From Stappia taiwanensis (GTDB lineage Bacteria; Pseudomonadota; Alphaproteobacteria; Rhizobiales; Stappiaceae), in NCBI RefSeq assembly GCF_014635285.1, contig NZ_BMCR01000001.1:62001-126000 (forward strand): 64,000 nt of DNA, written 5' to 3'. The position numbers were made by a program, and so were the translations under genes. Below, one piece after another: positions 47,587-64,000 of this stretch. How positions within the stretch are numbered: position 1 is the first letter of the stretch; every line of letters starts with the position of its first letter. The notes under the pieces are model-generated. The model made no database searches. It saw nothing but the letters and a program-made list of their open reading frames with translations, and was not told the DNA's origin.

Positions 47587-50500
47587 TCACACGGCGCTGA
47601 TCCGCACCGGCAGGCCCTGACGGACGGAAGCGCCGGAGACCGGCTCCAGCCAGGTGCCGAGGGTCTTGCGCGTCGGGTCGGCAAAGCCGAGATCGTTGAT
47701 GTTCACACCAGCGGCGATCCACGGGTTGCCGGGCACCGTCTCGCCGTCGATGACATGATCCCGCGCGCCCAGTTCGGTATGGCCGAAGCTGTGCTCGATG
47801 CCGATGGCCCCGGGCATCACGCCCTTGGTGACGATCGCCAGACCGCGCAACCGGCCACCCGGGCTTTCGACCAGGATTTCCGCGCCATGGGCAATGCCAA
47901 GCCGTTCCGCGTCGTCGTGATTGACCAGGATCGGGTTGTACGGCTTGATCATCCGCAGCCGCTCAAGCCCGACCGAATAGCTGTTCATCACGTTCGACTT
48001 GTAGGAGAACGCCAGCATTGGCCAATCGGCCTCGCCGAAATGGTCGCGCATGGCGGAGCCATCGGCCATGGCCGGACGCAGGAAGCGGGCGGTGCCGAAC
48101 AGCCGCTTGCCGGTCATGCTGTCGATGCAGGTGCCGACCTTCTCGTTCCAGACGCAAAGCGTCCGCTTCCACGGGTTGCCGAGCGCTTCGCCATCGCGGG
48201 CCTTGTCGAAGGTCTGGTAGCGGCCGCCACGGGAGTAAAGATGCGCGACGGGACCGCGTTCCTCCGCCGGAAGCGTTGCCTCGATCTCCGGCAGCAGCCG
48301 TTCCAGACCGGAAAAGCGGATGTCATCCTCGCTCGCGTCCGGCAGCGGCTTGCCCATGAAGGCGATGTTGGCCGCCGCACGCAGGTAGAAGTCCTCCGCC
48401 CGGTTCAGCGGATGGGTTCCGCCCTCAGCATCGGTGATGGCATTGTCGCCGAAGCCGTCGAGGCCGAGCCGCTTGGCCAGCTTGATGAAGAAGCTCTCCA
48501 TGCTGACCGGCTGGCCATCGGCGGTCTTCGCCTGGCGCGGCTCGACGATCGGCCAGCAGGCGGTCGTCATCTTGGTCAGGTTGCCGGACCAGGCGCCGGT
48601 GAAGCCCCACACCTCATACATCACCGAATCCGGCACGATGTAATCGGCATAGGTGTTGGTCTCGTTGATGAAACCATCCACGGCGACATAGAGCGGCAGG
48701 ACCTTCGGGTCGCGCAGCTTGTCGGCGATCAGCGTCTTCAGCCCGGCCTGACCGTAGATCGGATTGCACATCACGCCGATCATCGCCTTGATCGGATAGG
48801 GATACCCGTCAATGGCCGCCGTGATGTGATCGGTCAGAACCGGCGGGGCCAGCCGGCGCCAGGGCGCGCGGGCGGGGTAGGGGCTCTTGCCTTCCGCCTT
48901 CAGCCGCTTGAACTCGCTGGTCTTCTCATAGGGAAACCGCGAGCGGGACAGGAACACGCCCTTGGGCTTGCGGGCGCCCTTGAAGCCGGCCAGGTTGTAG
49001 CGCGGCCCCTTGCCGGCGCCATTGAACTTGCCGCCGCCATGGGCGCTGCCGCCGGTGTGGTTGACGTTGCCGACCAGCACGTTGAGCAATTGCAGGGCGT
49101 AGGCGGAATAAAAGCCCGCGCCCGACATCATGCCGCCGTGGCAGTCCACCGCCGCCGTGCGGCCATGCTCCTTCAGCTTGCCGGCCATGTGCTGGAGCTG
49201 CTCCACCGACACGCCGCATTCGCCCGCCATCTCCTCAAGCGGATGGGACAGCGCTTCGTCGCGCAGGAGGCGCAGCGAGCTGCGCACATCGACGCTGTTG
49301 CCATCGGCCAGCGTGACCTTGGCATCAGTGAAAAGCTCCGCGCGCTCCACCGTGTTCGCCGGCACGATCGCGCCGGTGGCATCCATGACCATCGGCGCGT
49401 CGTCTTCCGCATCCGCCGGCTTCAGGCCGAGATCGGATTCGCGCAAGAAAGCCCCGGCGCGCGGATGATCGTCGCTGGTAATCACCAGATGCACGGCGTT
49501 GCTGTGCGAGGGCTCACCCGCCGCCTTGGCCGCAGCGGCGTTCGGGATCGCCAGATACTCCGCCGCATAGCCTTCGGTTTCGAACAACAGGCGCATCAAC
49601 GCCATGCCGAGCGCGGTGTCGCTGCCCGGACGGATCGGTACCCAGTTGGCGCGCGGACCGGCGGCACGGGCGACGGAGGCGTTCAGCGCCGGATCGACAA
49701 CGATATACTCCAGCGTCTCGTCAACACGGGCCTTCGACAACAGCCGACCCTGACGCTTGAACGGGTTGCCCGCCTGGGACGGTGCCGTGCCGATGAACAG
49801 GCCGAAGGTGGCCTTCTCGAAGTCCGGCTTCAGATGCGCGTTCTTGGCCAGGTCGTTCATCATCGCGCCGGCGCCCATGCGGAAGGCAAGGCCGCAGTAG
49901 GAGCCGTGGTGACCGTAGTTGCGGGTGCCGAATGCCTTGTCGGAGAAGCGGCGCAGCACGGCCGAGCGGCCGTAGTCGGTTGCTTCCATGACCAGCAGCT
50001 GGTTGGTCTTCGGCCCGTATTCGGGGTTTTCCGGGTCGAGCGGCGTGTCGTAGTCGTTGATGGCCGCCAGGCCGTCCACATGGCCTTCGCCGAACAGGTC
50101 GCCGCCCTCGACGATTTCCTCGATCAACTGTTCGAAGCTGATCGTCTCCCACTTGCCTTCGCCGCGCTTGCCGGCGCGCTTCAGGCACTGGGTGATGCGG
50201 TGCGGGCTGGTGATCTGGGCGATCATCGCATTGCCGCGCGCACAGGTGGTCGAGCGCGCCGCCCAGCCCTGATCCTGAAACGCGGTGGTGCGCAGCAACG
50301 CGTCCTTGACCGGCAGGGTCTCATCCGCGTGCTCATCCGCCGACAGCGGGTTGAACGGATTGCCGACCGAGCGCAGCACGGTCTCGGAGCGATTGTCGAT
50401 CCGCACCCGCACGCCGCATTTGGTCGTGCAGCCATAGCAGACGGTGAAGGCGACGCGCTGGTCCGGGTTCGGCGTGACGTCGCCGGTCTCCAGATCCACC

Positions 50501-50673
50501 CGGTATTCCGGATCGAGCGCATTGCCATAGACCGGATGCTTGGGCTTCTCGCCCGAACTGCCCGTCAGGCCCTTGGCCATGCGGGTCAGGGGTTCGGAAT
50601 AGCCGGCGGCAAAGGTGGCCGCACCGGCAGCGATAGCGCCGCCCTTCAAGAGATTGCGACGTGTCTTATCCAT
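47587..50673 (-). CDS. ttrA: Tetrathionate reductase subunit A (molybdopterin catalytic subunit)
   Basis: Catalytic Mo-bis-MGD subunit that reduces tetrathionate to thiosulphate in the periplasm, as terminal acceptor in anaerobic respiration. The 1028 residues match TtrA (about 1020). A twin-arginine signal is present (TRRNLLKGG, residues 4-12). The [4Fe-4S] cluster ligands are CYGCTTKCGVR (about 79-89) and CARGN near 144. A likely Mo ligand Cys is in GSYCGLAFRMG. The order B-C-A on the minus strand is the order in Salmonella. The 5' end overlaps ttrC by eight bases. Related molybdenum reductases acting on other sulphur compounds are the alternative. Confidence 0.87.
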   Translation of the reverse strand: MDKTRRNLLKGGAIAAGAATFAAGYSEPLTRMAKGLTGSSGEKPKHPVYGNALDPEYRVDLETGDVTPNPDQRVAFTVCYGCTTKCGVRVRIDNRSETVLRSVGNPFNPLSADEHADETLPVKDALLRTTAFQDQGWAARSTTCARGNAMIAQITSPHRITQCLKRAGKRGEGKWETISFEQLIEEIVEGGDLFGEGHVDGLAAINDYDTPLDPENPEYGPKTNQLLVMEATDYGRSAVLRRFSDKAFGTRNYGHHGSYCGLAFRMGAGAMMNDLAKNAHLKPDFEKATFGLFIGTAPSQAGNPFKRQGRLLSKARVDETLEYIVVDPALNASVARAAGPRANWVPIRPGSDTALGMALMRLLFETEGYAAEYLAIPNAAAAKAAGEPSHSNAVHLVITSDDHPRAGAFLRESDLGLKPADAEDDAPMVMDATGAIVPANTVERAELFTDAKVTLADGNSVDVRSSLRLLRDEALSHPLEEMAGECGVSVEQLQHMAGKLKEHGRTAAVDCHGGMMSGAGFYSAYALQLLNVLVGNVNHTGGSAHGGGKFNGAGKGPRYNLAGFKGARKPKGVFLSRSRFPYEKTSEFKRLKAEGKSPYPARAPWRRLAPPVLTDHITAAIDGYPYPIKAMIGVMCNPIYGQAGLKTLIADKLRDPKVLPLYVAVDGFINETNTYADYIVPDSVMYEVWGFTGAWSGNLTKMTTACWPIVEPRQAKTADGQPVSMESFFIKLAKRLGLDGFGDNAITDAEGGTHPLNRAEDFYLRAAANIAFMGKPLPDASEDDIRFSGLERLLPEIEATLPAEERGPVAHLYSRGGRYQTFDKARDGEALGNPWKRTLCVWNEKVGTCIDSMTGKRLFGTARFLRPAMADGSAMRDHFGEADWPMLAFSYKSNVMNSYSVGLERLRMIKPYNPILVNHDDAERLGIAHGAEILVESPGGRLRGLAIVTKGVMPGAIGIEHSFGHTELGARDHVIDGETVPGNPWIAAGVNINDLGFADPTRKTLGTWLEPVSGASVRQGLPVRISAV

Positions 50674-51826
50674 GGCTCGCGGCTCCTTTCGCCGAGTAGT
50701 CTGGGGTCGTGTCCGGTGCGTCCGCGGCGGTGCCGCCGAGGGCCCCGCGCCAGGGCACGAGCATGTCGATGACGAGGATCAGCGCGATCCACAGGCCGAA
50801 GGTGCCGACCACGCCGAGCCAGCCGCTGGAGCCCCAGCCGACGGTGTATTCCAGATAGCCGGCGGTCTGCTTCTGCACGGTCTGCACGTCCATCAGCACG
50901 ACCCAGCGGGCCATCCACGCAAGGTGCAGGGCGACAAGACCGACAATCCAGCTCCAGCCGCGCTGCGGCTTGCGCCACAACAGGAGAAGGCAACCGAGGG
51001 TGAGGGCGGTGCCGACGCCCAGGCCCCAGGCGGAGGTGGAGCGCCATTCGGCACTGTGTCGGACCGAGCGCAGCGCGGCGGCGACCGAGCTGTTCTCCAT
51101 GTAAAGACCTTCCAGCACCCACATCAGGGCAACGCCGGCGGTGGCCACGGCGGCGGCGGAGACCACCCAGAGCATGTTGCGGGCGGTGTCGGGATCGCGC
51201 GGGCCGGCGATGCGCGAAAGCAGCAGCACCAGACCGCCGGCGCCGATGAGCCCGGTGGTGGCGAAGAACGGCAGCAGCCACACGGTGTTCCACAGCGGTC
51301 GTCCCTTGACGATGGCGACCTCGCTGCCGGTGTAGACGGCGATGCCGAGCGACAGCGCGGTGGTCGCCAGCGCCAGGGTGACGACGAGAAGGCGCGGGGT
51401 CTGCCAGCTTCCCAGCGTCACCAGCCGGGCGATCATGCCGAAGAGATCGCCGCGTTGACGCCAGACCAGCATCGGCTCGCGCCAGACCAGCCAGGCCAGG
51501 GCGATGATGGCGAAGACGAAGGGCGGCAGCATCAGACTGCCGATCGACATCCAGGACCAGGGGGTGAAATAGGCATAGAAGTGCCAGAATCGCAGCGGCT
51601 GGTGCAGGTCGGCCAGCAGTGCGATCGGCGCGACGATTGCCGTCGTCATGGCGCCCAGCATGGCAAAGCGCGCGGTTGCCTTCCAGCGGGCCGCGCCCAG
51701 AAGACCGGGCAGGGCAAGCCACAGCGACGCATAGGCCAGCGCGATCATGAAGAAATACTGCACGGCCCAGGGGTACCAGGCGATCTGGTAGCGCGGGGCA
51801 AGGATCTCAATGACCGCTGAATTCAT
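50666..51826 (-). CDS. ttrC: Tetrathionate reductase subunit C (NrfD-like membrane anchor)
   Basis: A 386-residue integral membrane quinol-oxidising subunit with about nine hydrophobic segments. It begins IAWYPWAVQYFFMIALAYAS, then IALLADLHQPLRFWHFYAYF, a conserved piece of the NrfD/TtrC family that contributes to the quinol site. The C-terminal tail (about 350-386) is soluble and Ala-rich. It overlaps ttrB by 20 bases and ttrA by eight, so all three are coupled. It passes electrons from quinol to the Fe-S subunit TtrB. Confidence 0.88.
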   Translation of the reverse strand: MNSAVIEILAPRYQIAWYPWAVQYFFMIALAYASLWLALPGLLGAARWKATARFAMLGAMTTAIVAPIALLADLHQPLRFWHFYAYFTPWSWMSIGSLMLPPFVFAIIALAWLVWREPMLVWRQRGDLFGMIARLVTLGSWQTPRLLVVTLALATTALSLGIAVYTGSEVAIVKGRPLWNTVWLLPFFATTGLIGAGGLVLLLSRIAGPRDPDTARNMLWVVSAAAVATAGVALMWVLEGLYMENSSVAAALRSVRHSAEWRSTSAWGLGVGTALTLGCLLLLWRKPQRGWSWIVGLVALHLAWMARWVVLMDVQTVQKQTAGYLEYTVGWGSSGWLGVVGTFGLWIALILVIDMLVPWRGALGGTAADAPDTTPDYSAKGAASHG

Positions 51827-52586
51827 AGTGCAGCTCCTCGTTGTCCTTGCCGTGGATGTCCCAGATCGAGGCGAAGGCCTCGGGCCGGTCGATGAACCGT
51901 TCGTCCATCCCCAGATAGAAGACGTGCGGGCTGGTGCCCTTTTCCGGTTGCAGCACTTTCAGCTCGCCGTGATGCTCGGCGACCATCTTGGAGATCGTGC
52001 TTTCCGGGTCGTTGAGGTCGCCGATGATGCGGGCGCCGCCGACGCAGCTTTCCACGCAGGCCGGCAAAAGCCCCGCCTCCAGCCGGTGGGTGCAGAAGGT
52101 GCACTTGTCCGCCGTCTGGGTCTTGTCGTTGATGAAACGCGCGTCATAGGGACAGGCCTGAACGCAATAGGCGCAGCCGACGCAGCGCTCGGCATCGACC
52201 ACGACGATGCCATCTTCCTGCTGGTAGGTGGCCTGCACCGGACAGACCGGCACGCAAGGCGGATTGTCGCAATGGTTGCACAGGCGCGGCAGGAAGAAGG
52301 TCGACATGTCGCCCGTCTCCGGATCATCGACCTCGTATTGCGAGACGATGGTGCGGAACTTGCCGAGCGGCGCGTCGTTTTCCAGATGGCACGACACCGT
52401 GCAGGCCTGACAGCCGATGCAGCGGCGCAGGTCGATCAGCATGGCATAGCGTTTGGCGGGGTCGCCGCCGCGGCGCGGTGGCTGTTCGTTGATGGCGGCC
52501 TCCGCAACGGTGGCCAGCGGCACAAGGCTCGCTCCGGCGGTAAACCGCGCGAGCTGTCCCATGAACATCCGTCTTGCAAGATCCAT
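51807..52586 (-). CDS. ttrB: Tetrathionate reductase subunit B (ferredoxin-like)
   Basis: A 259-residue periplasmic four-cluster iron-sulphur subunit. A Tat-type N-terminus (RRMFMGQL) is followed by TAGASLVPL. The cluster motifs are RRCIGCQACTVSCHLEN, LCNHCDNPPCVPVCPVQAT, ERCVGCAYCVQACPYDAR and CTFCTHRLEAGLLPACVESC (key Cys quoted in context, about 55-175). The wording of these segments is very close to Salmonella TtrB as I remember it, including GGARIIGDLNDP and GTSPHVFYLG. This makes it the best evidence that the operon is ttr rather than another DMSO-reductase-like system. First gene of ttrBCA. Confidence 0.92.
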   Translation of the reverse strand: MDLARRMFMGQLARFTAGASLVPLATVAEAAINEQPPRRGGDPAKRYAMLIDLRRCIGCQACTVSCHLENDAPLGKFRTIVSQYEVDDPETGDMSTFFLPRLCNHCDNPPCVPVCPVQATYQQEDGIVVVDAERCVGCAYCVQACPYDARFINDKTQTADKCTFCTHRLEAGLLPACVESCVGGARIIGDLNDPESTISKMVAEHHGELKVLQPEKGTSPHVFYLGMDERFIDRPEAFASIWDIHGKDNEELHYEFSGH

Positions 52587-53154: not shown

Positions 53155-54318
53155 ATGCGTCTCCTGACAATCATTCTGGGCGATCTTGTGCTTCGCGAAA
53201 ACGGGGTTCGGGCCGCGGCGCGGATCAGCGGAGCGCCGGTGTCGACCGTTGCGTCGGCGTTGGCGCGGCTGGAGGCGGAGCTTTCCCTCCAGTTGGTGCG
53301 CCGGGGTGGGGGCGATCTGGCGCTCTCGGTCCAGGGCGAACAGCTGCGCGGCAGCCTGGAACGTATCAGCACCCTGTGCCGCCGGGTCTACCGGCTGTCG
53401 CCCGACGATTCTCTCGCGGCGGTTCTTACAACGCCCGTCACCCTCGAGGCTCTGTTTCGCCTGGCCGGCGTTCTGCGCGCCGGCAGCATCCGCAAGGCGG
53501 CGTTGGAGATGCAGCTCGGTCAGCCGCAACTGACCCGGACGATCACCCAGATCGAACAGCGGCTGGGGCGCGTGCTGATGGAGCGCGGCAGTCACGGTGT
53601 CACGCCCACGGCGGAGGGGCTTGCCCTGATCGAGGTCATCGACGAGCTGCAGGACCGCTGGTCGTATCTCAGCCGCACTTCGGACAACCGGTTCGAACGC
53701 GGGGTGCGCGGCCGGTCGCTCGGTTCGGTCATCCCTTCCGGCAGCCAGAGCGAGATCGCGGAGGTTTTGGCCCGCATTTCCATCCGCTGGCTCCAGCGCT
53801 TCCCCGTGCCGCTGTTCATTGCTTCGGCGACGGCGGAGGAATTGATGACCGGTCTCGATGAAGGGCGCTACGATGCCGTGCTTCTGGACAGCGGAACGGT
53901 GGAGAACCGCTACCGCTGCGTGCCGATGCTGGCCGGACGGCTTGCGCTTTATGGACAGGATTTGCCCGACACACTGGCCTGTCCCGAATTGATGGAGGCG
54001 CTGTCCCGCGCGCCTCTCGCCCTGCAGAGCCTGCGTAGTGGGTTGCGCCAGAAGACGACGCAATTCCTGGATGATTTTTGCGGCCCCGACTGGCGCTGGA
54101 AGATCCGCCTGATGGAGATAGATTCGGTGCCGGTGACCCTGAACGCCGTGCTCTATCAGGGGGCGATCTCGGTTCTGCCGGCCTCGCTGCGCCTGCCGGC
54201 GGGGGCGTGCGTCAAGCGTCTTCTGCTACCGCCCGACTATCTCCAGACCCTCTCGCTGATCTCCCGGCATGACGCGCGGAGTCAGCGTTTTGTCGAGCAA
54301 ATTCAAGAGCTTTTCTAA
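53155..54318 (+). CDS. LysR-type regulator with two tandem HTH domains
   Basis: A 387-residue regulator. The first winged helix-turn-helix is at about 1-64 (VRAAARISGAPVSTVASALARLEAEL). A second, classic LysR one is at about 94-155 (TLEALFRLAGVLRAGSIRKAALEMQLGQPQLTRTITQIEQRLG), followed by a LysR effector domain from about 165. Ordinary LysR proteins have one HTH and 290-330 residues. It is the gene directly before the hydantoinase operon, same strand, 120 bp away, so it likely regulates it. The doubled domain could be an ancient duplication within the family. The N-terminal copy is more diverged. Confidence 0.8.
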   Translation: MRLLTIILGDLVLRENGVRAAARISGAPVSTVASALARLEAELSLQLVRRGGGDLALSVQGEQLRGSLERISTLCRRVYRLSPDDSLAAVLTTPVTLEALFRLAGVLRAGSIRKAALEMQLGQPQLTRTITQIEQRLGRVLMERGSHGVTPTAEGLALIEVIDELQDRWSYLSRTSDNRFERGVRGRSLGSVIPSGSQSEIAEVLARISIRWLQRFPVPLFIASATAEELMTGLDEGRYDAVLLDSGTVENRYRCVPMLAGRLALYGQDLPDTLACPELMEALSRAPLALQSLRSGLRQKTTQFLDDFCGPDWRWKIRLMEIDSVPVTLNAVLYQGAISVLPASLRLPAGACVKRLLLPPDYLQTLSLISRHDARSQRFVEQIQELF

Positions 54319-54438: not shown

Positions 54439-55821
54439 ATGTCCGATTTTGATCTGGTGCTGCGCGGCCGCGTCGTTCTGACGGACCGTGAGGTCGAGGG
54501 TGGTTTCGTTGCTGTACGCGACGGCAAGGTCGCCCTGGTGGGCGAAGGCAGCGCCCCGGCCGCGCGTGAGCGGCACAACCTCGGCGCGGCGCTGATCCTG
54601 CCCGGTGCGGTCGACGCCCAGGTGCATTCTCTGTCGCAGAAAGGCGCGGAAGGCTTCGCCGCCTCCACCGCCGCCGCCGCTGCCGGCGGTGTCACCACCA
54701 TCGTCGACATGCCCTATGACGAGGGCAATCTGGTCTGCTCCGCCGAAGCGGTGCGGCGCAAGGCGGATGAGGCGGAGGCCGAAGCCCGCGTCGATGTCGC
54801 GCTTTATGGCACGGTCGATCCGGCCGAGGGCCCGGCCCGCGTTGCCGAGCAGGCAGAGGCCGGCGTCGCCGCCTTCAAGTTTTCAACCTTCGGCACCCAC
54901 CCGACCCGGTTTCCCCGCATTCCGCCGGCGCTGCTGATGGCCTGTTTCGCGGAAGTGGCCAAGACCGGTCTGGCCGCCGGCGTGCACAATGAAGACGATG
55001 CCTTCGTGCGCGAGGCGGTTGCCGCCGTCGAGGCCGCCGGGATCACCGACTGGCGCGCCCATGGCCTGTCTCGCCCGCCGATGACCGAAATCCTCGCCAT
55101 GTTGCAGATTTACGAGACCGGGGCTGCAACCGGCTGCCCGGCGCATGTGGTGCATTGCTCGCTCGGGCGCGGCTATGAGATCGCCCGCCGCTATCGCGCG
55201 GAGGGCCATCACGCCACTGCCGAATGCTGCATCCACTATCTGACGCTCGATGAGGAAAATGACGTTGCGCGGCTTGGCGGCAAGGCCAAGATCAACCCGC
55301 CGATCCGTCCGCGTGCCGAAGTCGAGACCCTGTGGCGCCATGTGGCGACCGGCAACATCTCCATGGTTTCCACCGATCACGTGAGCTGGTCGGAAGACCG
55401 CAAGACCGATCCGGAGATGCTGAAGAACGCCTCCGGCGTGCCGGGGCTGGAAGTGATGGTTCCGCTTTTCGTCAAGGGCGCGCTGGAGCGGGGCATCTCG
55501 CTGACCTGGGCGGCCCGGTTGATGGCGGATAATCCTGCCCGCCATTTCCGCCTCGATCATGCCAAGGGTGGCATTGCCGTCGGGCGCGATGCCGACCTCA
55601 CGGTTCTGGAGCCGGTCGCCCGTGTCTATGACGCAGGCGCCAGCCGTCATTCGCTCGCCGGCTGGTCGCCCTATGATGGGATCGAACTGCCTTGGACGAC
55701 CGCCGCAACCTGGCTGCGCGGCCGGCAGGTCTTCGACGGCACCACGGTTTGTGCGGCGCCGGGCACCGGTAATTTCGTGCGGCCCGACTTGCCCCTTGGT
55801 CTGCGCAAGGCGGTGCACTGA
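54439..55821 (+). CDS. Hydantoinase/allantoinase-family amidohydrolase
   Basis: A 460-residue cyclic amidohydrolase (dihydroorotase, allantoinase, dihydropyrimidinase group) expected to open a five-membered cyclic amide. The motif HxH near the N-terminus reads DAQVHS, so Gln61 replaces the first His and only His63 remains. The other binuclear metal ligands are in place: Lys147 (carboxylated in relatives), His183, His239 and Asp313 (STDHVSW). This may mean a mononuclear or altered metal site. ATG 54439 follows GAGGGGGGAC. It is the first gene of the catabolic operon and overlaps the next (TGATG). A hydantoin-5-propionate hydrolase is the likely role (inference). Confidence 0.78.
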   Translation: MSDFDLVLRGRVVLTDREVEGGFVAVRDGKVALVGEGSAPAARERHNLGAALILPGAVDAQVHSLSQKGAEGFAASTAAAAAGGVTTIVDMPYDEGNLVCSAEAVRRKADEAEAEARVDVALYGTVDPAEGPARVAEQAEAGVAAFKFSTFGTHPTRFPRIPPALLMACFAEVAKTGLAAGVHNEDDAFVREAVAAVEAAGITDWRAHGLSRPPMTEILAMLQIYETGAATGCPAHVVHCSLGRGYEIARRYRAEGHHATAECCIHYLTLDEENDVARLGGKAKINPPIRPRAEVETLWRHVATGNISMVSTDHVSWSEDRKTDPEMLKNASGVPGLEVMVPLFVKGALERGISLTWAARLMADNPARHFRLDHAKGGIAVGRDADLTVLEPVARVYDAGASRHSLAGWSPYDGIELPWTTAATWLRGRQVFDGTTVCAAPGTGNFVRPDLPLGLRKAVH

Positions 55822-57047
55822 TGCGCAATCTCCGGGTCGACGCCAACCGTATTCAGTCCGATCTTGAGGCGCTTGCCGCGATCACCGATCCCGGCCGCCC
55901 CTGGACCCGTCGTGCCTTCTCGCCCCGTTTCGACGAGGGGCGGGGGTGGCTTGCCCGCCGCTTCGCGGAGGCTGGTCTCACCGTCTCGCACGATGCCGGT
56001 GGAAATCTGATTGGCCGGCGTGCCGGCAGCGCCGGCGGGCTGGGCACGATCCTGCTCGGCTCCCATTCCGACACCGTGCCCGATGGCGGGCGTTTCGATG
56101 GTGTCGCCGGCGTGGTGGTCGCCCTTGAAGTAGCGCGAACCCTGGCGGAACGCGGTCATGAGCTGCGTCACGATCTCGGTATTGTCGACTTTCTTGCGGA
56201 GGAAGTGTCCGTCTTTGGCGTGTCCTGCATCGGCTCGCGCGCCATGGCCGGGGTGCTGCCGGCGGACTGGATGGGCCTCACCCATGAGGGGCGGACGCTG
56301 GAAACGGCGATGCGCGACGTCGGCGGCGCGCCGGAGGACATCGCCGCGCGTGATGATATCCGCGCCTTTCTGGAACTGCACATCGAGCAGGGGCCCGTTC
56401 TGGAAGACAGCGGCTGCGATCTGGGCATCGTCACCGCCATCGCCGGTATCACCCGCGTGGAGATCGTGCTGACGGGCCGCCCGGATCATGCGGGCACCAC
56501 GCCGATGACTGGACGCGGCGACGCATTGGTCGCCGCCGCCGGTCTGGTCTCCGCCATTGAGGCGGAAGCCCGCGACCGCGCGGCGCAGGGCAGTCATTTC
56601 ACCGCCACGGTGGGTGAGTTCTCGATGGAGCCCAATGCCGCCAATGTCGTGCCGGGCCGGGTGCGGATGCTGATCGATGCCCGCGCCGCCGACCGGGCGC
56701 AAATGCTTGGTTTCCTCGACTGGATCGATGCGCGCTGCGCCGCATTGCCCGAAGCCATTGCGGTGGAGGTGAGGCGCCTGTCCGACAATCAGCCGACGCC
56801 GATGGATGGCGCTTTGATCGACCGGCTGGATGCCGCCGCCGACCGCTGCGGTGCGCGCCACCGCCGGATGGTCTCCGGCGCCGGTCACGATGCTGCCTTC
56901 ATGGCGCGGATCGCGCCGGCGGCCATGGTTTTCGTCCCCTGTCTCGGGGGGCGTTCGCACTGCCCGGAAGAATGGGCCGAAACCGCCGACATCGCGCTAG
57001 GCGCGGAAGTTCTGGCCGAAACCGTTATCGCCCTGGACCAGGGCTGA
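55821..57047 (+). CDS. M20-family N-carbamoyl-amino acid amidohydrolase (allantoate amidohydrolase-like)
   Basis: A 408-residue binuclear zinc hydrolase that releases ammonia and CO2 from N-carbamoyl amino acids or allantoate. Metal and catalytic residues are readable: His82 and Asp93 (GSHSDTVPDGGRFDG), Glu127-Glu128 (FLAEEVS), His187 (HIEQGPVLE), and a late His near GAGHDAAFMA. The HIEQG motif is typical of the hydantoin/allantoate branch rather than of peptidases. Following the cyclic amidase directly with a one-base overlap, it most likely opens the N-carbamoyl product of that step. Substrate by context would be N-carbamoyl-L-glutamate. Confidence 0.83.
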   Translation: MRNLRVDANRIQSDLEALAAITDPGRPWTRRAFSPRFDEGRGWLARRFAEAGLTVSHDAGGNLIGRRAGSAGGLGTILLGSHSDTVPDGGRFDGVAGVVVALEVARTLAERGHELRHDLGIVDFLAEEVSVFGVSCIGSRAMAGVLPADWMGLTHEGRTLETAMRDVGGAPEDIAARDDIRAFLELHIEQGPVLEDSGCDLGIVTAIAGITRVEIVLTGRPDHAGTTPMTGRGDALVAAAGLVSAIEAEARDRAAQGSHFTATVGEFSMEPNAANVVPGRVRMLIDARAADRAQMLGFLDWIDARCAALPEAIAVEVRRLSDNQPTPMDGALIDRLDAAADRCGARHRRMVSGAGHDAAFMARIAPAAMVFVPCLGGRSHCPEEWAETADIALGAEVLAETVIALDQG

Positions 57048-57068
57048 GATCTAACGAGAGGAGAGGAA

Positions 57069-58169
57069 ATGCGTCGTACCTTGACCGAAAAGGACGTCGA
57101 ACCCGCCGTACGCGGCGGCTCGGTCTATGCTGCCGGTGGCGGCGGCTGGGCGGATCATGGCCGCAAGCTTGGCTATGCCGCTGTCGGCGCCGGAGCGCCG
57201 GAGCTGGTGTCCATTGATGAGTTGAACGACGATGATTGGGTCGCCACCGCCGCCGCTATCGGCGCGCCGGCCAGCACCACCCCCTGGGAAATGCGCGGCG
57301 TCGACTACGTCAAGGCCGTGCGGATGCTCAACGAAGCACTCGGCACGCCGGTGTCTGGCCTGATCGTTGGCCAGAACGGCAAGTCCTCCACCCTCAATGG
57401 CTGGCTGCCGTCCGCGATCCTCGGCTGCAAGGTGATCGACGCGGTTGGTGACATCCGTGCGCATCCGACCGGCGACATGGGCTCGATCGGCATGGCCGGC
57501 TCGCAGGAACAGATGATCCAGACCGCCGTCGGCGGCAATCGCGAGCAGAACCGCTACATCGAACTGACCGTGCGCGGCGCCACCGCCAAGGTCTCGCCGA
57601 TCCTGCGTACCGCCTCGGACATGTCCGGCGGCTTCATCGCCAGCGCCCGCAATCCGTTGCGCGCGTCTTACGTGGCGCGCAATGCCGCGCTTGGCGGCAT
57701 CTCCATGGCGCTCGATCTGGGCCATGCGATCCTGGCGGCCGAGCCGAAGGGCACGGCGGCGGTGATCGACACCATCGTTGAGCAGACGCGCGGCGCGATC
57801 CTGATCGAGGACGTCGTCACGAAGAAGAACGTCGTCTACACGAACGAAGCCTTTGATGTCGGCACCGTCGTTGTCGGCTCGGGCGACAAGGCACTGACCC
57901 TCCATGTCATGAACGAATACATGGCCATCGACGATGCCGGCGGCAATCGCATCGCCAGCTTCCCCGATGTCATCACCACCTTGTCGACCGACGCCGAGCC
58001 GCTCTCCGTCGGACAGCTTGAGGAAGGCATGCGGGTGCACATCCTGCACGTTCCGAAATCGGTGATCCCGCTCGGCGCGGGCGTGCTCGATCCGGCCGTC
58101 TATCCGTCCGTCGAAAAAGCCATGGGTATTGAACTCGCGAAATACGCGCTGGAGCCGTCGAATGCCTAA
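57069..58169 (+). CDS. DUF917 family protein (S-methyl-thiohydantoin desulfurase-like)
   Basis: A 366-residue protein with the DUF917/S-Me-THD pattern: an N-terminus RRTLTEKDVEPAVRGGSVYAAGGGG, then PASTTPWEMRGVDYVKAVRMLN, DMGSIGMAGSQEQMIQTAVGG, and a C-terminal domain ending GVLDPAVYPSVEKAMG. The Pfam name refers to removal of sulphur from thiohydantoins. A desulfhydrase of 3-(5-oxo-2-thioxoimidazolidin-4-yl)propanoate is known in ergothioneine breakdown and is, as I recall, of this kind. I infer sulphur release from a thiohydantoin here. It starts 21 bases after the amidohydrolase stop and overlaps the next gene by eight. Confidence 0.75.
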   Translation: MRRTLTEKDVEPAVRGGSVYAAGGGGWADHGRKLGYAAVGAGAPELVSIDELNDDDWVATAAAIGAPASTTPWEMRGVDYVKAVRMLNEALGTPVSGLIVGQNGKSSTLNGWLPSAILGCKVIDAVGDIRAHPTGDMGSIGMAGSQEQMIQTAVGGNREQNRYIELTVRGATAKVSPILRTASDMSGGFIASARNPLRASYVARNAALGGISMALDLGHAILAAEPKGTAAVIDTIVEQTRGAILIEDVVTKKNVVYTNEAFDVGTVVVGSGDKALTLHVMNEYMAIDDAGGNRIASFPDVITTLSTDAEPLSVGQLEEGMRVHILHVPKSVIPLGAGVLDPAVYPSVEKAMGIELAKYALEPSNA

Positions 58170-59820
58170 GCCCAATCCCCGTCACCCCGACTTCCCGATC
58201 CCCGGCGGGCCCGAGCGCCGTGCCCGGACCTGGCGTGCGGAAGGCTTGCTGAGGCTGATGGAAAACGTCCTGGCCGTCGGCGAGGCGCCGGAAAAGCTGA
58301 TCGTCTATGCCGCGCTCGGACGCGCCGCGCGGACCTGGCCGGCCCATGACGCCATCGTCAAGGCGCTGCTTGAGATGGAAGAGGACCAGACGCTGGTGAT
58401 CCAGTCCGGCAAGCCGGTCGGTCTGCTGCGCACCCACAAGGATGCGCCCATGGTGATCATGGCCAACTGCAACCTGGTCGGCCAGTGGGCGAAGGCGGAT
58501 GTCTTCTACGATCTGGAGCGCAAGGGCCTGATCTGCTGGGGCGGGCTGACCGCCGGCGCTTGGCAGTATATCGGCTCGCAGGGCGTCATTCAGGGCACCT
58601 ACGAGATCTTCATGCGCATTGCCGAGCGCCGCTTCAAGGGCAAGCTGGAGGGCCGCTTCATCCTGACCGCCGGTCTCGGTGGCATGGGCGGTGCCCAGCC
58701 GCTGGCCGGGCGCATGGCCGGGGCTGCGATCCTGTGCGTCGACGTGGATGCGGAGCGAGCCGAAAAGCGCCGCGAAATCGGCTTCCTCGATGAAATTGCG
58801 ACGGATCTGGACGACGCGCTGGCGCGCATCGAAGCGGCGCGCGCGGAAGGCCGGGCGCTCTCCGTCGCTCTCGTTGGCAACGCCGCCGAGGTCTTCCCCG
58901 AGATCGCCGCGCGCGGCATCACCCCGGACATTGTCACCGACCAGACCAGCGCCCATGATCTGGTCTATGGGTATGTGCCCGCCGGCTATGACCTCGATCG
59001 TGTCCGCCGCCTGCGCGAGCAGAACCCGGAAGAGCTGATCGAGGCGGGGCGCGAGAGCATCACCCATCATGTCCGCGCCATGCTGACCTTCCAGGAGCGG
59101 GGCGCGGAGGTGTTCGACAACGGCAATCTCATCCGCACCCAGGCCAAGGAGGGTGGCGTGGAGAATGCGTTCTCGATTCCGATCTTTACCGAAGCCTATC
59201 TGCGTCCGCTGTTCGCCCGTGCCATTGGCCCGTTCCGCTGGATGGCGCTGTCGGGCGAGGAAAGCGACATTGCCCGGATCGACGATCTCCTTCTGGAGAT
59301 GTTCCCGGACAACAAGATCGTCACCAACTGGATCAGGCTTGCCCGCGAGAACGTTCCCTTCGAGGGATTGCCGGCGCGCATCGCCTGGCTCGGTCACGGC
59401 GAACGCACGGAGCTTGCCAAGGCGGTCAACCGTCTGGTCGCCTCCGGTGAACTGGCTGGCCCGATTGCCTTCTCGCGCGATCATCTCGATGCCGGCGGCA
59501 TGGCGCACCCCAACATCATGACCGAGGGGATGCGGGACGGATCGGACGCCATCGCCGACTGGCCGTTGCTCGATGCCATGGCGCTGTGCTCCTCCGGTGC
59601 GGATCTGGTCGCCATTCACTCCGGCGGCGGTGGATATGCCGGATACATGACCTCCGCCGGCGTGACCGTGGTTGCTGACGGGACGGAAGACGCCGATACC
59701 CGTATCGACCTGTCTTTGACCAACGACACGGCGCTCGGCGTCATCCGCTATGCCGATGCCGGCTATGCGGATGCGCTCGACGAAGCGCAAAAGAAGAGCG
59801 TCGGACACATCAGAACCTGA
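58162..59820 (+). CDS. Urocanase-family protein with Cys-to-Ala substitution
   Basis: A 552-residue homologue of urocanate hydratase (HutU, about 556). It is clear from YIGSQGVIQGTYE, the NAD+-binding TAGLGGMGGAQPLAGRMAG (about 170-188), DIVTDQTSAHD, IGPFRWMALSGE and DGSDAIADWPLLDA. The segment FEGLPARIAWLG holds Ala408 where classical urocanases have the active-site Cys (Cys410 in Pseudomonas putida). The protein also differs in GHG after that motif. Thiourocanate hydratase, which acts on the sulphur analogue, is the best guess given the DUF917 and hydantoinase neighbours. Plain urocanase activity looks doubtful. The start overlaps the DUF917 stop. Confidence 0.82.
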   Translation: MPKPNPRHPDFPIPGGPERRARTWRAEGLLRLMENVLAVGEAPEKLIVYAALGRAARTWPAHDAIVKALLEMEEDQTLVIQSGKPVGLLRTHKDAPMVIMANCNLVGQWAKADVFYDLERKGLICWGGLTAGAWQYIGSQGVIQGTYEIFMRIAERRFKGKLEGRFILTAGLGGMGGAQPLAGRMAGAAILCVDVDAERAEKRREIGFLDEIATDLDDALARIEAARAEGRALSVALVGNAAEVFPEIAARGITPDIVTDQTSAHDLVYGYVPAGYDLDRVRRLREQNPEELIEAGRESITHHVRAMLTFQERGAEVFDNGNLIRTQAKEGGVENAFSIPIFTEAYLRPLFARAIGPFRWMALSGEESDIARIDDLLLEMFPDNKIVTNWIRLARENVPFEGLPARIAWLGHGERTELAKAVNRLVASGELAGPIAFSRDHLDAGGMAHPNIMTEGMRDGSDAIADWPLLDAMALCSSGADLVAIHSGGGGYAGYMTSAGVTVVADGTEDADTRIDLSLTNDTALGVIRYADAGYADALDEAQKKSVGHIRT

Positions 59821-59889: not shown

Positions 59890-60903
59890 ATGCTGGCACT
59901 GCGCAAACTGAAACTGGGAAGCCTCATCGCGGCCGCTGCACTCACTCTGGCCAGCCCGGCCATTGCCGAGGAGCAGGTGACGCTGAAATACTCCTCCTTC
60001 CTGCCGGCCACGACGGTCAACAATGCCCTGTCCGCCAAGGCATTGATCGACAAGGCTGCGGAACTGTCCGACGGCACCTTGAAGATCGAGCTTTATCCGG
60101 GCGGTTCGCTCGTCTCCGGCGGCGAGGTCCAGCTCAAGCTGGTGCAGGACGGGGTCGCCGATATCGCCGAAATTCCGCTGCCCTATACCCCGGGCCGCGT
60201 CACCGGCCTCGACGTGTTCGAACTGCCGGGCCTGACCTCAAGCAATTCCGACGGCGCACTCGCCAGCCTCGCCCTGATCGAGCAGGGGTTGATCGGCGGT
60301 ATGGACGGGCTGATCCCGCTCGGCATGTTGCAGTCCGGTCCGTACTTCATTCATCTCGCCGAACCGATTGAGAAGCTGTCCGATCTGCGCGGCAAGAAGC
60401 TGCGGATCTCCGGTCAGATGCAGGCGCAGATCGTCGCCCGTCTCGGTGCGGTGCCGGTCTCCAATATTCCCGCCACCGCCCTGGCCGAAAACGTCAGCCG
60501 CGGCCTGATCGACGGCGCGCTGGTCGACACCGGCAACCTCTACAACTTCGGCGTCGGCGATCTTCTGACCTATCACGTCACCAATCTGCCGCTTGGTGCG
60601 TTCGCCGTGCTGTTCGGACTGTCGGAAGACAGCTACGAGGCGCTGCCGCCGAAGGCCAAGGCCGCCATCGATCAGCTCAAGGGCGAGTGGTACACGACCG
60701 AGCTGGGCAAGAACATGGACGGCCAGACCGCCGATGTCATGGCGCGGCTGGAAGCCTCGGACGCCCATCACTTCATCGAACTGTCCGAGCGCGACCTGAC
60801 CAAGGCCAAGACCGTGCTGAAGCAGGTCGAGAAGCAGTGGCTCGCGCGGTCGGACAAGAACCCCGACATTCTTGCGGCGGCGCATGCCGCGCTCGGCAAG
60901 TGA
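59890..60903 (+). CDS. dctP: TRAP transporter solute-binding protein (DctP family)
   Basis: A 337-residue periplasmic binding protein of a tripartite ATP-independent transporter. The signal peptide is about 1-26 (ALTLASPAIA|EE). The mature part starts QVTLKYSSFLPATTVNN. It contains the conserved DctP segment DLRGKKLRISGQMQAQIVARLGAVPVSNIP, where the Arg in this segment normally binds a carboxylate. The ligand is then probably a carboxylic acid. The gene follows the enzymes and precedes the two membrane subunits, so the substrate of the pathway is a likely ligand. Confidence 0.88.
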   Translation: MLALRKLKLGSLIAAAALTLASPAIAEEQVTLKYSSFLPATTVNNALSAKALIDKAAELSDGTLKIELYPGGSLVSGGEVQLKLVQDGVADIAEIPLPYTPGRVTGLDVFELPGLTSSNSDGALASLALIEQGLIGGMDGLIPLGMLQSGPYFIHLAEPIEKLSDLRGKKLRISGQMQAQIVARLGAVPVSNIPATALAENVSRGLIDGALVDTGNLYNFGVGDLLTYHVTNLPLGAFAVLFGLSEDSYEALPPKAKAAIDQLKGEWYTTELGKNMDGQTADVMARLEASDAHHFIELSERDLTKAKTVLKQVEKQWLARSDKNPDILAAAHAALGK

Positions 60904-61475
60904 GAGGCGAACCACTCCTGGTGAGGCTGGCCAACGCGATCGCGGTGGTCGGCCTGACCGCCTTGCTGGCGGTGACGGCTCTGGTGCTGCTCGATGTGTT
61001 GCTGCGCTCGAGCGCCGTCCTCGCCTTGCGGGACAGCTGGCCGCCTCTGGACATGTGGTTGCTGGAACATGGGTTCGACGGGCTGTCCGACCTTTACGCA
61101 CCGTTGGGGATCGTCGCTGTCGCGGCCTGTTTCCCGGCGATGCTGGTCACCCGCTCGGCGATCACCGTGCGCTTCCTCACCCAGACCTTTCCCTGGCGTT
61201 TCCGGGAAGCCTTCGAGGCGGTCGGGGCCGCCATGCTGCTGGCGATGTTTGGCCTGATGGCCTGGTGGACGAGCGAATACGCGCTCGACCTCTGGCACTC
61301 CGGCGAGACGACCTGGCTCTTGGAAATCCCCCGCTGGCCGGCCTTTGCCATCACCTGTGTCTGCCTCTGGCTCGGCGTCGTCATTCAGACGGTCGTGGCC
61401 CTCCGGCAGGTGGCGGTGGTTTTCGCCAAGGTCGAACCGCCCACCCTTCCGCCAAGCGTTAGCGAGATCGAGTAG
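60900..61475 (+). CDS. dctQ: TRAP transporter small membrane subunit (DctQ)
   Basis: A 191-residue protein with four hydrophobic segments, beginning LANAIAVVGLTALLAVTALVLLDVLL and including PLGIVAVAACFPAMLV. These fit the DctQ layout. GTG 60900 overlaps the binding-protein stop by four bases (GTGA), so translation is coupled. A second GTG at 60921 is an alternative. It pairs with DctM, the next gene. Confidence 0.8.
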   Translation: MRGEPLLVRLANAIAVVGLTALLAVTALVLLDVLLRSSAVLALRDSWPPLDMWLLEHGFDGLSDLYAPLGIVAVAACFPAMLVTRSAITVRFLTQTFPWRFREAFEAVGAAMLLAMFGLMAWWTSEYALDLWHSGETTWLLEIPRWPAFAITCVCLWLGVVIQTVVALRQVAVVFAKVEPPTLPPSVSEIE

Positions 61476-61478
61476 CCC

Positions 61479-62771
61479 ATGTCTCCTGTCCTGATCGGCC
61501 TTCTGGGTTTGGCCGCGCTGCTTGCGGTCATCCTGCTCAATGTCCCCATCGCCGCCGCCATGGCCGCGGTCGGCGTCCTCGGAACCCTGTTTCTCGATGC
61601 TCAGGCCTCCGTCTTTTCCCTGTTCGGCACCGCCACCGTGCAGGCGCTTTCCTCGCAGGAACTGATTGTCATTCCGCTGTTCATCCTGATGGGCGGTTTC
61701 GCGATCATCGCCGGCCTGTCAAAGGAGATCTACCGCCTCTCCCATGCCTGGATCGGCCACTTTCGCGGCGGTCTCGCTCTGACCACCGTCGGCACCAGTG
61801 CGATCTTCGGCGCGATCTGCGGCTCGTCCGTCGCCACCACGGCAACGATGGTGCAGGTCGCCTTGCCGGAAATGCGCAAGCGTGGCTATTCCAATGCGCT
61901 GATTGCCGGCTCCATCGCCGGTGGCGGCACGCTCGGCTCGCTCATTCCGCCGTCCGTGATCATGGTCGTCTACGCCATTCTCACCCAGCAGAGCGTGCTT
62001 GACCTGTTCCGGGCGGCGATCATTCCCTCGATCATGGCCGTGCTTCTCTACTTCGTGGCGATCCGGCTGGTCCTCTTGCGCAATCCGCAGGATGGCGAGG
62101 CCCTGCCGCGCTCCACCTGGGGCGAGCGGGCGCGTGCCACCGGACAGGCCCGGCTGACGCTGATGGTCGCCGGCGTGATGCTCGGCGGCATCTATTCCGG
62201 CATCTTCACCGTCAACGAAGGAGCGGCCATCGGCGTTCTGATGGTGCTGGTGACCTGCCTGGTTCGCCGCCGGCTGACCCGTGAGAACTTCATCCAGACG
62301 CTGATCCGCGCGGCCTCCAACATCGGCATGATCTATCTGATCCTGATCGGGGCGGAGATCTACAAGAGCTTCCTCACGCTTTCCGGCCTGCCGGCCGCGA
62401 CGGTCGATTGGGTCGGCGGTCTTGACCTGCCGCCGCTGCTGATCGTGTCGGTGGTGATCCTGCTCTACATCCTGCTCGGCTGCCTGTTCGACGCCATGGC
62501 GGCAATGATCCTGACCATGCCCTTCGTCTTCCCGCTGGTGGTCGGCCAGCTCGGCTACGATCCGGTCTGGTGGGGCATCATGAACGTCATGATCATCGAG
62601 ATCGGCATGATCACACCGCCGGTGGGCATCAACATCTTCGTGCTGCATGGCATGCGGCCCGACCTGAAACTGAGGCAGATCTATGCCGGTCTGACGCCCT
62701 TCGTGCTCATCGACGTGCTGCGCATCGTGATCTTCCTGCTGTTCCCCGGCCTGATGCTGGCCCTCGTCTAA
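61479..62771 (+). CDS. dctM: TRAP transporter large membrane subunit (DctM)
   Basis: A 430-residue permease of the DctM/ion-transporter superfamily with about 12 hydrophobic segments. Family motifs include GGFAIIAGLSKEIYRL, TTVGTSAIFGAICGSSVATTATMVQVALPEM, GGGTLGSLIPPSVIMVVYAI and GMITPPVGINIFVLHG near the C-terminus. It starts three bases after DctQ. With DctP and DctQ it forms a complete Na+-driven importer. Confidence 0.9.
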   Translation: MSPVLIGLLGLAALLAVILLNVPIAAAMAAVGVLGTLFLDAQASVFSLFGTATVQALSSQELIVIPLFILMGGFAIIAGLSKEIYRLSHAWIGHFRGGLALTTVGTSAIFGAICGSSVATTATMVQVALPEMRKRGYSNALIAGSIAGGGTLGSLIPPSVIMVVYAILTQQSVLDLFRAAIIPSIMAVLLYFVAIRLVLLRNPQDGEALPRSTWGERARATGQARLTLMVAGVMLGGIYSGIFTVNEGAAIGVLMVLVTCLVRRRLTRENFIQTLIRAASNIGMIYLILIGAEIYKSFLTLSGLPAATVDWVGGLDLPPLLIVSVVILLYILLGCLFDAMAAMILTMPFVFPLVVGQLGYDPVWWGIMNVMIIEIGMITPPVGINIFVLHGMRPDLKLRQIYAGLTPFVLIDVLRIVIFLLFPGLMLALV

Positions 62772-62781
62772 GGAGACAGAC

Positions 62782-63954
62782 ATGTCGACCGCTTCCGGCC
62801 GTCCGCTGGACGGGGTGAGGATTCTCGACTTCACCCGCGTTCTGGCCGGCCCCTTCTGTACCGCGTTGCTTGCCGATATCGGTGCCGACGTCATCAAGAT
62901 CGAAAGCGCCACGGGCGACGATCAGCGGCATATGGGTGCCGTTCGCAATGGCCACTCGATCAATTTCGAGTTGATCAACCGCAACAAGAAAAGCCTGTGT
63001 CTCGACCTCAAGTCCGAGGCCGATCAGGAGACCGTGCGCCGGCTGCTGCCCTCCTGCGATGTGGTGGTGGAGAACTTCCGCCCCGGTGTCGCCGCGCGGT
63101 TGGGGCTCGATCACGAGACCCTGTCGGCGCAAAGGCCGGACCTGATCTACTGCTCGATTTCCGGCTTCGGCCAGGAGGGGCCGCTGGCGCGGGCGCCGAG
63201 CTACGACGTTGTCGCGCAGGCCATGAGCGGCTTCATGAGCGTGACTGGCGAGCCGGACGGGTCGCCCGTCTTTGCCGGGGATTCCATCGGCGACACGGTG
63301 CCGGGCATCTACGCCGCCTGGGCGATCTGTGCCGCGCTGTTCAAGCGTGAGCGGACAGGGCAGGGCGAGCGCATCGACGTGGCGATGTTCGACAGCCTGT
63401 TCTCGCTCCTGCCGACCGCGCTTTCGCAGCTTCAGTCGACGGGGGAGGCGCCGCAACGCTCCGGCGCGATCCATCCGCTGTCCGCCCCCTTCGGCGCCTA
63501 TCGCGCCGGCGACGGCTATTTCATCCTGGCCGTGGCCAATCGTCCTTTGTTCCAGCGCCTGGCGGAGTTGATCGGGCGCCCGGACCTTCCCGACGATCCG
63601 CGCTTCGACAGCGATCAGAACCGGCGTGCCAACGAACCGGCGCTGCGCGAGATCCTCGAAGGATGGGCAGGCGCCTTCTCCGCCACCGAGGTCATTGCCC
63701 GGCTGGAAGAGCACGGCATCCCCGCCGCGCCGATCTGGGATGTCGCGGAAGCGGCGGCCAGCCCGCAAGTTGCGGCGCGCAACCTTCTGACCCGTCAGGT
63801 CGCGACCGCCGCCGGTCCGCTCGACCTGCCCGAACAACCTGTCGTCTTTTCCGGCTCCCCGCGTGGGCAGCAGGCACCGGCGCCCGCCCTCGGCGGCGAC
63901 CGTGCGCATGTGGATGCGATCCTCGCCAAGAGCCGAGAACAGGAGAATACCTGA
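62782..63954 (+). CDS. Class III CoA-transferase (CaiB/BaiF family)
   Basis: A 390-residue CoA-transferase. The beginning LDGVRILDFTRVLAGPFCTALLADIGADVIKIE is the family N-terminus. VVVENFRPGVAARLG and SGFGQEGPLARAPSYDVVAQAMSG follow, the latter containing the catalytic Asp of the family, then GIYAAWAICAALFKRERTGQGERIDVAMFDSL. It starts 10 bases after DctM and overlaps the acyl-CoA dehydrogenase start, so it belongs to the same transcript. It probably activates the transported acid or a pathway intermediate to its CoA thioester. The CoA donor is unknown. Confidence 0.88.
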   Translation: MSTASGRPLDGVRILDFTRVLAGPFCTALLADIGADVIKIESATGDDQRHMGAVRNGHSINFELINRNKKSLCLDLKSEADQETVRRLLPSCDVVVENFRPGVAARLGLDHETLSAQRPDLIYCSISGFGQEGPLARAPSYDVVAQAMSGFMSVTGEPDGSPVFAGDSIGDTVPGIYAAWAICAALFKRERTGQGERIDVAMFDSLFSLLPTALSQLQSTGEAPQRSGAIHPLSAPFGAYRAGDGYFILAVANRPLFQRLAELIGRPDLPDDPRFDSDQNRRANEPALREILEGWAGAFSATEVIARLEEHGIPAAPIWDVAEAAASPQVAARNLLTRQVATAAGPLDLPEQPVVFSGSPRGQQAPAPALGGDRAHVDAILAKSREQENT

Positions 63955-64000
63955 TGGATTTGGCCTTTTCGCCCGAGGACCGGGCGTTTTTCGATCACGT
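63954..64000 (+). CDS. Acyl-CoA dehydrogenase, N-terminal fragment (window edge)
   Basis: Only 15 codons are in the window, MDLAFSPEDRAFFDH. They are characteristic of the start of acyl-CoA dehydrogenase family proteins (commonly MDLxFSPEDxAFRDEV). The ATG overlaps the CoA-transferase stop (TGATG). It would oxidise a CoA thioester made by the preceding enzyme. The call rests on a very short sequence. Confidence 0.6.
   Translation, partial: MDLAFSPEDRAFFDH

Follow-up and report, generated by a model that had tools for sequence, protein, structure and literature searches.

The core pathway by which bacteria break down ergothioneine is already established; Seebeck's group reportedly reconstituted it in vitro, and Muramatsu and co-workers are said to have studied ergothioneine catabolism in Burkholderia. 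Here we describe an operon in a 64,000-nucleotide stretch of Stappia taiwanensis DNA (the window; assembly GCF_014635285.1, contig NZ_BMCR01000001.1, forward-strand positions 62,001 to 126,000) that shares four of the five steps of this pathway by curated models, in the same gene block (ertDECB), but has a coenzyme A (CoA) transferase, two acyl-CoA dehydrogenases (ACAD1 and ACAD2), and a tripartite ATP-independent periplasmic (TRAP) transporter instead of the ergothionase. The carnitine CoA cycle (CaiB/CaiA), in which CaiB recycles CoA, likewise pairs a class III CoA transferase with an acyl-CoA dehydrogenase, and CaiB (1xk6) is among the solved matches; however, the CaiB and crotonobetainyl-CoA dehydrogenase models score far below cut-off here, and the Stappia dehydrogenase is a pair. 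For both ACAD1 and ACAD2 the best match is a partner chain of the heteromeric acyl-CoA dehydrogenases (4x28; 6wy8/6wy9, Tcur3483-Tcur3481), which we take to act on steroid side chains. Histidine utilisation (HutH, HutU, HutC) also uses a urocanase-family hydratase, and sister copies of the Stappia module stand beside HutC; on the other hand, ErtB, the hydratase of this operon, is split from HutU, and the genome's own hut cluster is separate.

We consider it fairly probable that the operon contains a CoA-dependent side door, in which the CoA transferase and the heteromeric dehydrogenase would turn imported 3-(2-thioxoimidazol-4-yl)propionate, the saturated form of thiourocanate, into thiourocanate for the ert core. 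The TRAP transporter would import the saturated acid, the CoA transferase would load it with CoA taken from thiourocanyl-CoA, and ACAD1/ACAD2 would make the side chain of the thioester unsaturated; the CoA would then pass to the next substrate molecule, with release of thiourocanate, and recycling of this kind would make a CoA ligase or thioesterase unnecessary. Because the dehydrogenase would supply ErtB, it must start from a saturated propionyl thioester; the substrate, the CoA donor, and the order of release are what we infer from the genes. ErtB would convert thiourocanate to 3-(5-oxo-2-thioxoimidazolidin-4-yl)propionate, ErtC would desulfurize this to hydantoin-5-propionate with release of sulfide, ErtD would open the ring to N-carbamoyl-glutamate, and ErtE would yield glutamate, each step having family-level support. 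A broader reading, for which we see about even chances, is that TRAP, class III CoA transferase, and heteromeric dehydrogenase form a module in which a self-recycling CoA cycle converts imidazole-ring propionates to urocanates, the ert-linked form taking 2-thio-imidazole propionate and the HutC-linked form imidazole propionate.

The original prediction, made from the window's sequence, had described four tightly packed genes at 54439-59820, overlapping or within about 20 bp of one another; this is confirmed, and all four lie on the plus strand. The first, ertD (54439..55821, 460 amino acids, Pfam Amidohydro_1), encodes a hydantoin-5-propionate amidohydrolase by the equivalog NF058538 (766.5 bits, cut-off 600) and overlaps ertE (55821..57047, 408 amino acids) by one base. 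The ertE product, an M20 carbamoyl hydrolase, passes the N-carbamoyl-glutamate amidohydrolase equivalog NF058540 (587.1 bits, cut-off 520) and scores higher on the generic Zn-dependent hydrolase model NF009531 (616/486). After a 21-base gap comes ErtC (57069..58169, 366 amino acids), a DUF917 protein that passes the thiohydantoin desulfurase model NF058529 (585.2 bits, cut-off 440), and an 8-base overlap leads to ErtB (58162..59820, 552 amino acids from the ATG at 58162), a urocanase-like protein that passes the thiourocanate hydratase model NF058530 (1028.2 bits, cut-off 930); the names ErtB (hydratase) and ErtC (desulfurase) were assigned in this analysis. ErtB also passes the hutU model (694.6 bits, cut-off 375), while the genome's own HutU, as negative control, scores 678.7 bits on the thiourocanate model versus 968.2 on hutU. 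A grouping of ErtB with genuine HutU, which had been named as counting against the assignment, did not appear: with 70 ErtB and 5 HutU rows in one tree of 75, the two split at 100/100 (label counts of the ErtB rows were set aside, since row L002 repeats the window and L156 repeats L145), and the genome has a separate HutU of its own. The best solved match of ErtB is 7ned (785 bits), deposited as urocanate hydratase, with 1x87 at 620 bits. The four-gene block recurs across many other genomes, Rhizobium and Ensifer among them, and with the equivalog cut-offs passed this means that it is not a chance assembly. At the family level, then, the predicted assignment of one enzyme to each of the four steps holds, including DUF917 as the desulfurizing enzyme, and the order from thiourocanate through thiohydantoin propionate, hydantoin propionate, and N-carbamoyl-glutamate to glutamate is well supported.

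An operon end at 59820 was placed too early. The run continues on the plus strand with the TRAP genes for the substrate-binding protein DctP (59890..60903; PF03480, 83.5 bits), the small permease DctQ (60921..61475, its start estimated and unsettled; PF04290, 32.8 bits on the longer open reading frame 60687-61475), and the large permease DctM (61479..62771; PF06808, 277.5 bits), followed by the CaiB-type class III CoA transferase (62782..63954; PF02515, 419.8 bits) and ACAD1, the large dehydrogenase subunit, whose first 47 bases (63954..64000) lie before the window edge that cuts the gene. ACAD1 ends at window-equivalent 65069 (L002:10954-12069, where window positions are L002 + 53000), and ACAD2 follows it in the genome, outside the window, at window-equivalent 65080-66051 (L002:12080-13051). 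The source of thiourocanate is probably to be sought in the CoA transferase and dehydrogenase genes, which lie outside 54439-59820. Upstream, a LysR-family regulator (53155..54318, plus strand, start unsettled; HTH_1 65.1 bits, LysR_substrate 34 bits) completes the order lysR-ertDECB-TRAP-CoA transferase-ACAD1-ACAD2. The lysR-ertD gap measures 120 bases and the gap before dctP 69, and every other junction that is settled is an overlap or a gap no longer than 21 bases; given this tight spacing, ertD onward is likely one transcription unit. All eleven genes recur in Stappia indica (L034), with proteins 97-100% identical. HTH_1 was matched in two stretches within LysR proteins beside ert genes (window 53155-54318; L155:3567-5573), which is unusual for LysR regulators.

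To place this arrangement, we compared 123 loci that hold both ErtB and ErtC, the window excluded. They derive from 125 loci, of which 80 come from the best 80 of 271 relatives (mainly Rhizobiaceae), 35 were obtained by searching genomes, and 10 lie on plasmids; L140 and L166 were removed from these, as they hold ErtC but no ErtB. The 35 came from desulfurase-model searches matching 32/397 order genomes and 5/385 class genomes, the Stappia genome being counted in both; L133 and L156 were dropped as duplicates, L155 was merged with L115, and species may repeat between collections. The same model matched 5/299 genomes in a phylum sample and 3/20 in the family of genome G313, none new to the set. 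CoA transferase, ACAD1, and ACAD2 stand in that order beside an ert core in five of the 123 loci, and a blastp search of the ert loci with the three module proteins (1e-8) returned, outside the module loci, one stray acyl-CoA dehydrogenase (L165, 28%). Three arrangements occur. Stappia indica, Celeribacter persicus, and a Rhodobacteraceae metagenome-assembled genome have ertDECB-TRAP-CoA transferase-ACAD1-ACAD2; on plasmid pAMI4 of Paracoccus aminophilus the three module genes diverge from lysR-ertDECB; and G313 carries, on one strand, a lyase, a glycine-betaine-type ATP-binding cassette transporter, TRAP, CoA transferase, ACAD1, ACAD2, a LysR protein, and ertD, E, C, and B, which is, on gene order, two entry sets serving one core. 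In Martelella (L042) a lyase directly follows TRAP, at the module's position. Since the set recurs beside ert cores, we rejected the idea that the CoA transferase and dehydrogenases are stray neighbours.

In the reverse direction, ACAD1 as query matches 68/397 order genomes at 1e-95; after its own copy, the best match is in G313 (73%), ~6 kb from its ErtC, and the rest reach at most 56%. Thirteen other ACAD1 contexts were retrieved, with no ert genes in any. Of eight plasmid records that match at 1e-80, pAMI4 is the best (57%); it is one of the ten ErtC plasmids, and its ACAD1 and ErtC lie ~5 kb apart. The same plasmid heads the lists for the CoA transferase (28 records) and for the ACAD1 of the HutC-linked locus L183 (77 records). 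In the Celeribacter family, 5/374 genomes have a match at 1e-118, which is linked to ert genes in two of them and unlinked in the other three, and no ACAD1 was found in viral contigs. In three annotated contexts (L162-L164), non-module ACAD1 relatives have as neighbours an adenylate-forming enzyme and a thiolase, neither of which was seen in the gene and Pfam annotation of the ert operon.

In the ACAD1 tree (25 rows) the six ert-linked and two HutC-linked copies make one clade (100/99), apart from 17 others, and the ert clade has 100/100 support when the HutC copies are omitted (22 rows); the CoA transferase tree separates the same eight copies from four distant ones at 100/100. ACAD1 best matches 4x28_A and 6wy8_B and ACAD2 best matches 6wy8_A, with 4x28_D also matching, so that the two fall on different chains of the same heteromeric entries at modest similarity (170 and 57 bits). 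Glu244 of ACAD1 is conserved in all eight module copies, as well as in four non-module ones, and corresponds in the alignment to Glu247 of 4x28_A. Two adjacent, unequal dehydrogenase genes with a catalytic-type Glu in one thus have the make-up of a heteromeric enzyme at the gene level, and the complex is predicted. The CoA transferase has the class III domain CoA_transf_3 (PF02515), and its Asp171, which we take to be the catalytic residue, aligns with YfdE and is kept in 8/8 module copies.

The original prediction saw no ammonia-lyase in the window, and the wider search agrees: no ergothionase was found in the operon or in the 99.95% complete genome by a PF00221 search, whose sole match is HutH by NCBIfam, adjoining HutU in a hut cluster on another contig than the ert operon. 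That identity and position led us to reject the genome's own HutH as the ergothionase. Ergothionase is described in the part of PMC13405746 consulted as lacking the 4-methylideneimidazole-5-one (MIO) cofactor. The ASG triad is absent in 71/71 lyases (>400 amino acids, <50% identity to own HutH) from the loci of the best 80 of 271 relatives, and present in own HutH; these lyases therefore look ergothionase-like. A linked PF00221-type lyase occurs in 103 of the 123 loci, one of which (L146) keeps the triad. By PF00221 search, an ert-type lyase is present in all eight ert genomes examined that lack the module (four chosen for a linked lyase, and four unlinked, with a lyase elsewhere at 48-75% to an ert lyase). 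Among the module carriers (the P. aminophilus chromosome left out), a single PF00221 match is present in each of G000, G796, and G797, and G313 has a HutH-like match plus its linked ergothionase-like lyase.

Two further lyase observations stand apart from this comparison. A second MIO-less type, 25-29% to the common type and with GEA replacing the common type's GCA or GCG, stands beside ert genes at L042:7900-9576, L093:12946-14787, and L158:14961-17900. The 2.7-Mb genome G499 has 52 PF00221 match pieces, on contigs C1, C2, C3, C6, and C7 and at L146:7814-14000, many interrupted at the MIO region, a pattern also seen in MIO-less lyases, and so would represent a large lyase expansion; in its locus L146 the ErtC and ErtB genes come after the lyase that keeps the ASG triad.

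The alternative that survives best, though we judge it unlikely, is the original proposal of direct uptake: TRAP would import thiourocanate itself, straight to ErtB, and the CoA transferase and dehydrogenases would serve another acid, merely sharing the operon. The ert core does begin at thiourocanate, L145 and L159 have an ert core and TRAP with neither linked lyase nor module, and DctP keeps Arg172, invariant in ten aligned DctPs, which we take to suit carboxylates. However, direct uptake leaves unexplained both the recurrence of CoA transferase-ACAD1-ACAD2 beside ert cores in three arrangements and the HutC-linked sister copies; it is kept as a rival. A CoA-assisted loss of trimethylamine from ergothioneine was rejected on chemical grounds only, because a dehydrogenase does not help alpha-elimination.

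The sister copies bear on a second alternative. L183 (771-11789) and L184 (8526-18204), with ACAD1 at 60 and 59%, carry the whole module including TRAP and no ert genes. Each has an adjacent HutC repressor, which scores 270.7 and 258.7 bits respectively on TIGR02018 (cut-off 220), and the two are candidate imidazole propionate utilisation loci; a tetratricopeptide-repeat protein lies nearby in both and an ornithine-cyclodeaminase-like gene in L183. Their genomes have HutU and further HutC-model matches elsewhere. The TTGTATATA-type sites, presumably those bound by HutC, occur twice per 20-kb locus in L183 and L184, before the CoA transferase and between the matched part of HutC and dctP. In P. 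putida, urocanate releases HutC from hut operators according to the part of PMC12772324 consulted, where the title of reference 32 terms imidazolepropionate a nonmetabolizable inducer of histidine-degrading enzymes. Because HutC responds to urocanate, the HutC-linked relatives may handle imidazole propionate. The third non-ert genome of the Celeribacter family, G1317, has the dehydrogenase pair, with CoA transferase, HutC, and HutU not detected. It could be argued that the Stappia module, too, converts plain imidazole propionate to urocanate to feed the genome's own Hut pathway, sharing no substrate with ert, or accepts both acids, since the sister copies stand beside HutC and the genome has HutU and HutC; we find this quite improbable, as in all six ert loci the module's neighbours are ert genes and a LysR gene, with neither HutC nor hut genes among them, and the own hut cluster is on another contig.

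Least credible is degradation of an S-methylated thioimidazole with release of methanethiol: Pfam now names the DUF917 family S-Me-THD, which we take to mean S-methyl thiohydantoin desulfurase-like, but both S-methyl models fail here (ErtB 732.2 bits on the hydratase model, cut-off 880; ErtC 293.9 on NF058532, cut-off 450) while the thio models pass, a pattern repeated in the other module-locus proteins scored, four hydratases and two desulfurases, and on these scores we rejected an S-methyl-thiourocanate pathway.

Several observations weigh against the CoA-dependent entry that we favour. The module is absent from 118/123 ert loci, and lyase and module are not strictly exclusive: one locus (G313) has both and 16/123, some on short contigs, have neither, so that a missing lyase does not predict the module and a strict exclusion of one by the other had to be abandoned. 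Similarly, G265 and G375 have ert genes and a single PF00221 match with no module seen (the G375 contig is only 6 kb), and Stappia indica (G010/G795) has, besides a HutH-like match, an unlinked MIO-less lyase at 28% to the nearest ert-linked lyase. Close DctPs (66-67%) occur in the module-less L042 and L145, so TRAP is not necessarily specific for the saturated acid. The ert ACAD1 clade alone falls to 93/68 when the HutC copies are included, a distant CoA transferase (34-36%) lies within 20 kb in 4/13 of the other ACAD1 contexts, and no TTGTATATA-type sites were found in the window, the own hut cluster (L003), the hut loci L186/L187, or the ert loci searched.

Some neighbouring features deserve mention. 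Adjoining the putatively sulfide-releasing operon, three minus-strand genes (window 47587-52586) of a sulfur-type molybdoenzyme best match tetrathionate reductase TtrA, TtrB, and TtrC, all below cut-off (1292/1750, 413.8/416, and 202.5/314 bits). In Thalassospira marina pCSC3H3 (L159:9357-19256), ertDECB is followed by a UbiD-family decarboxylase and TRAP; neither a lyase nor the CoA module is linked, and the locus may represent a further entry variant. Long open reading frames directly after the own hutU (L003:1800-5254) are, by eye, TRAP transporter-like.

In the limited open-licence literature searched, we found no CoA route from imidazole propionates to urocanates, no CoA esters of either, nothing on ergothioneine together with urocanate reductase, no paper treating ergothioneine, thiourocanate, and hydantoin jointly, and nothing relevant that combines methyl thiourocanate and either thiohydantoin or a hydratase; within it, the CoA-dependent entry appears new. 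Early imidazolylpropionate work in Pseudomonas testosteroni, reportedly by Coote and Hassall, may already have included a reaction of this kind, with no genes assigned to it. We take the saturated acid to be the product of thiourocanic acid cross-feeding. Thiourocanic acid supports Bacteroides xylanisolvens by this cross-feeding, as stated in the part of PMC13405746 consulted (citing Zhou et al. 2025), and imidazole propionate is presented in the consulted part of PMC7676231 as a gut metabolite of microbial origin that is linked to impaired glucose metabolism. If our reading is true, it would add a second entry of ergothioneine-derived sulfur compounds into bacterial metabolism, with no trimethylamine released, by which aerobic bacteria could salvage the reduced product of ergothioneine cross-feeding, and it would supply candidate genes for the reverse of urocanate reduction. 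The two module forms predict their own substrates, and the HutC-linked form would provide candidate genes for aerobic imidazole propionate breakdown, useful given the tie to glucose metabolism.

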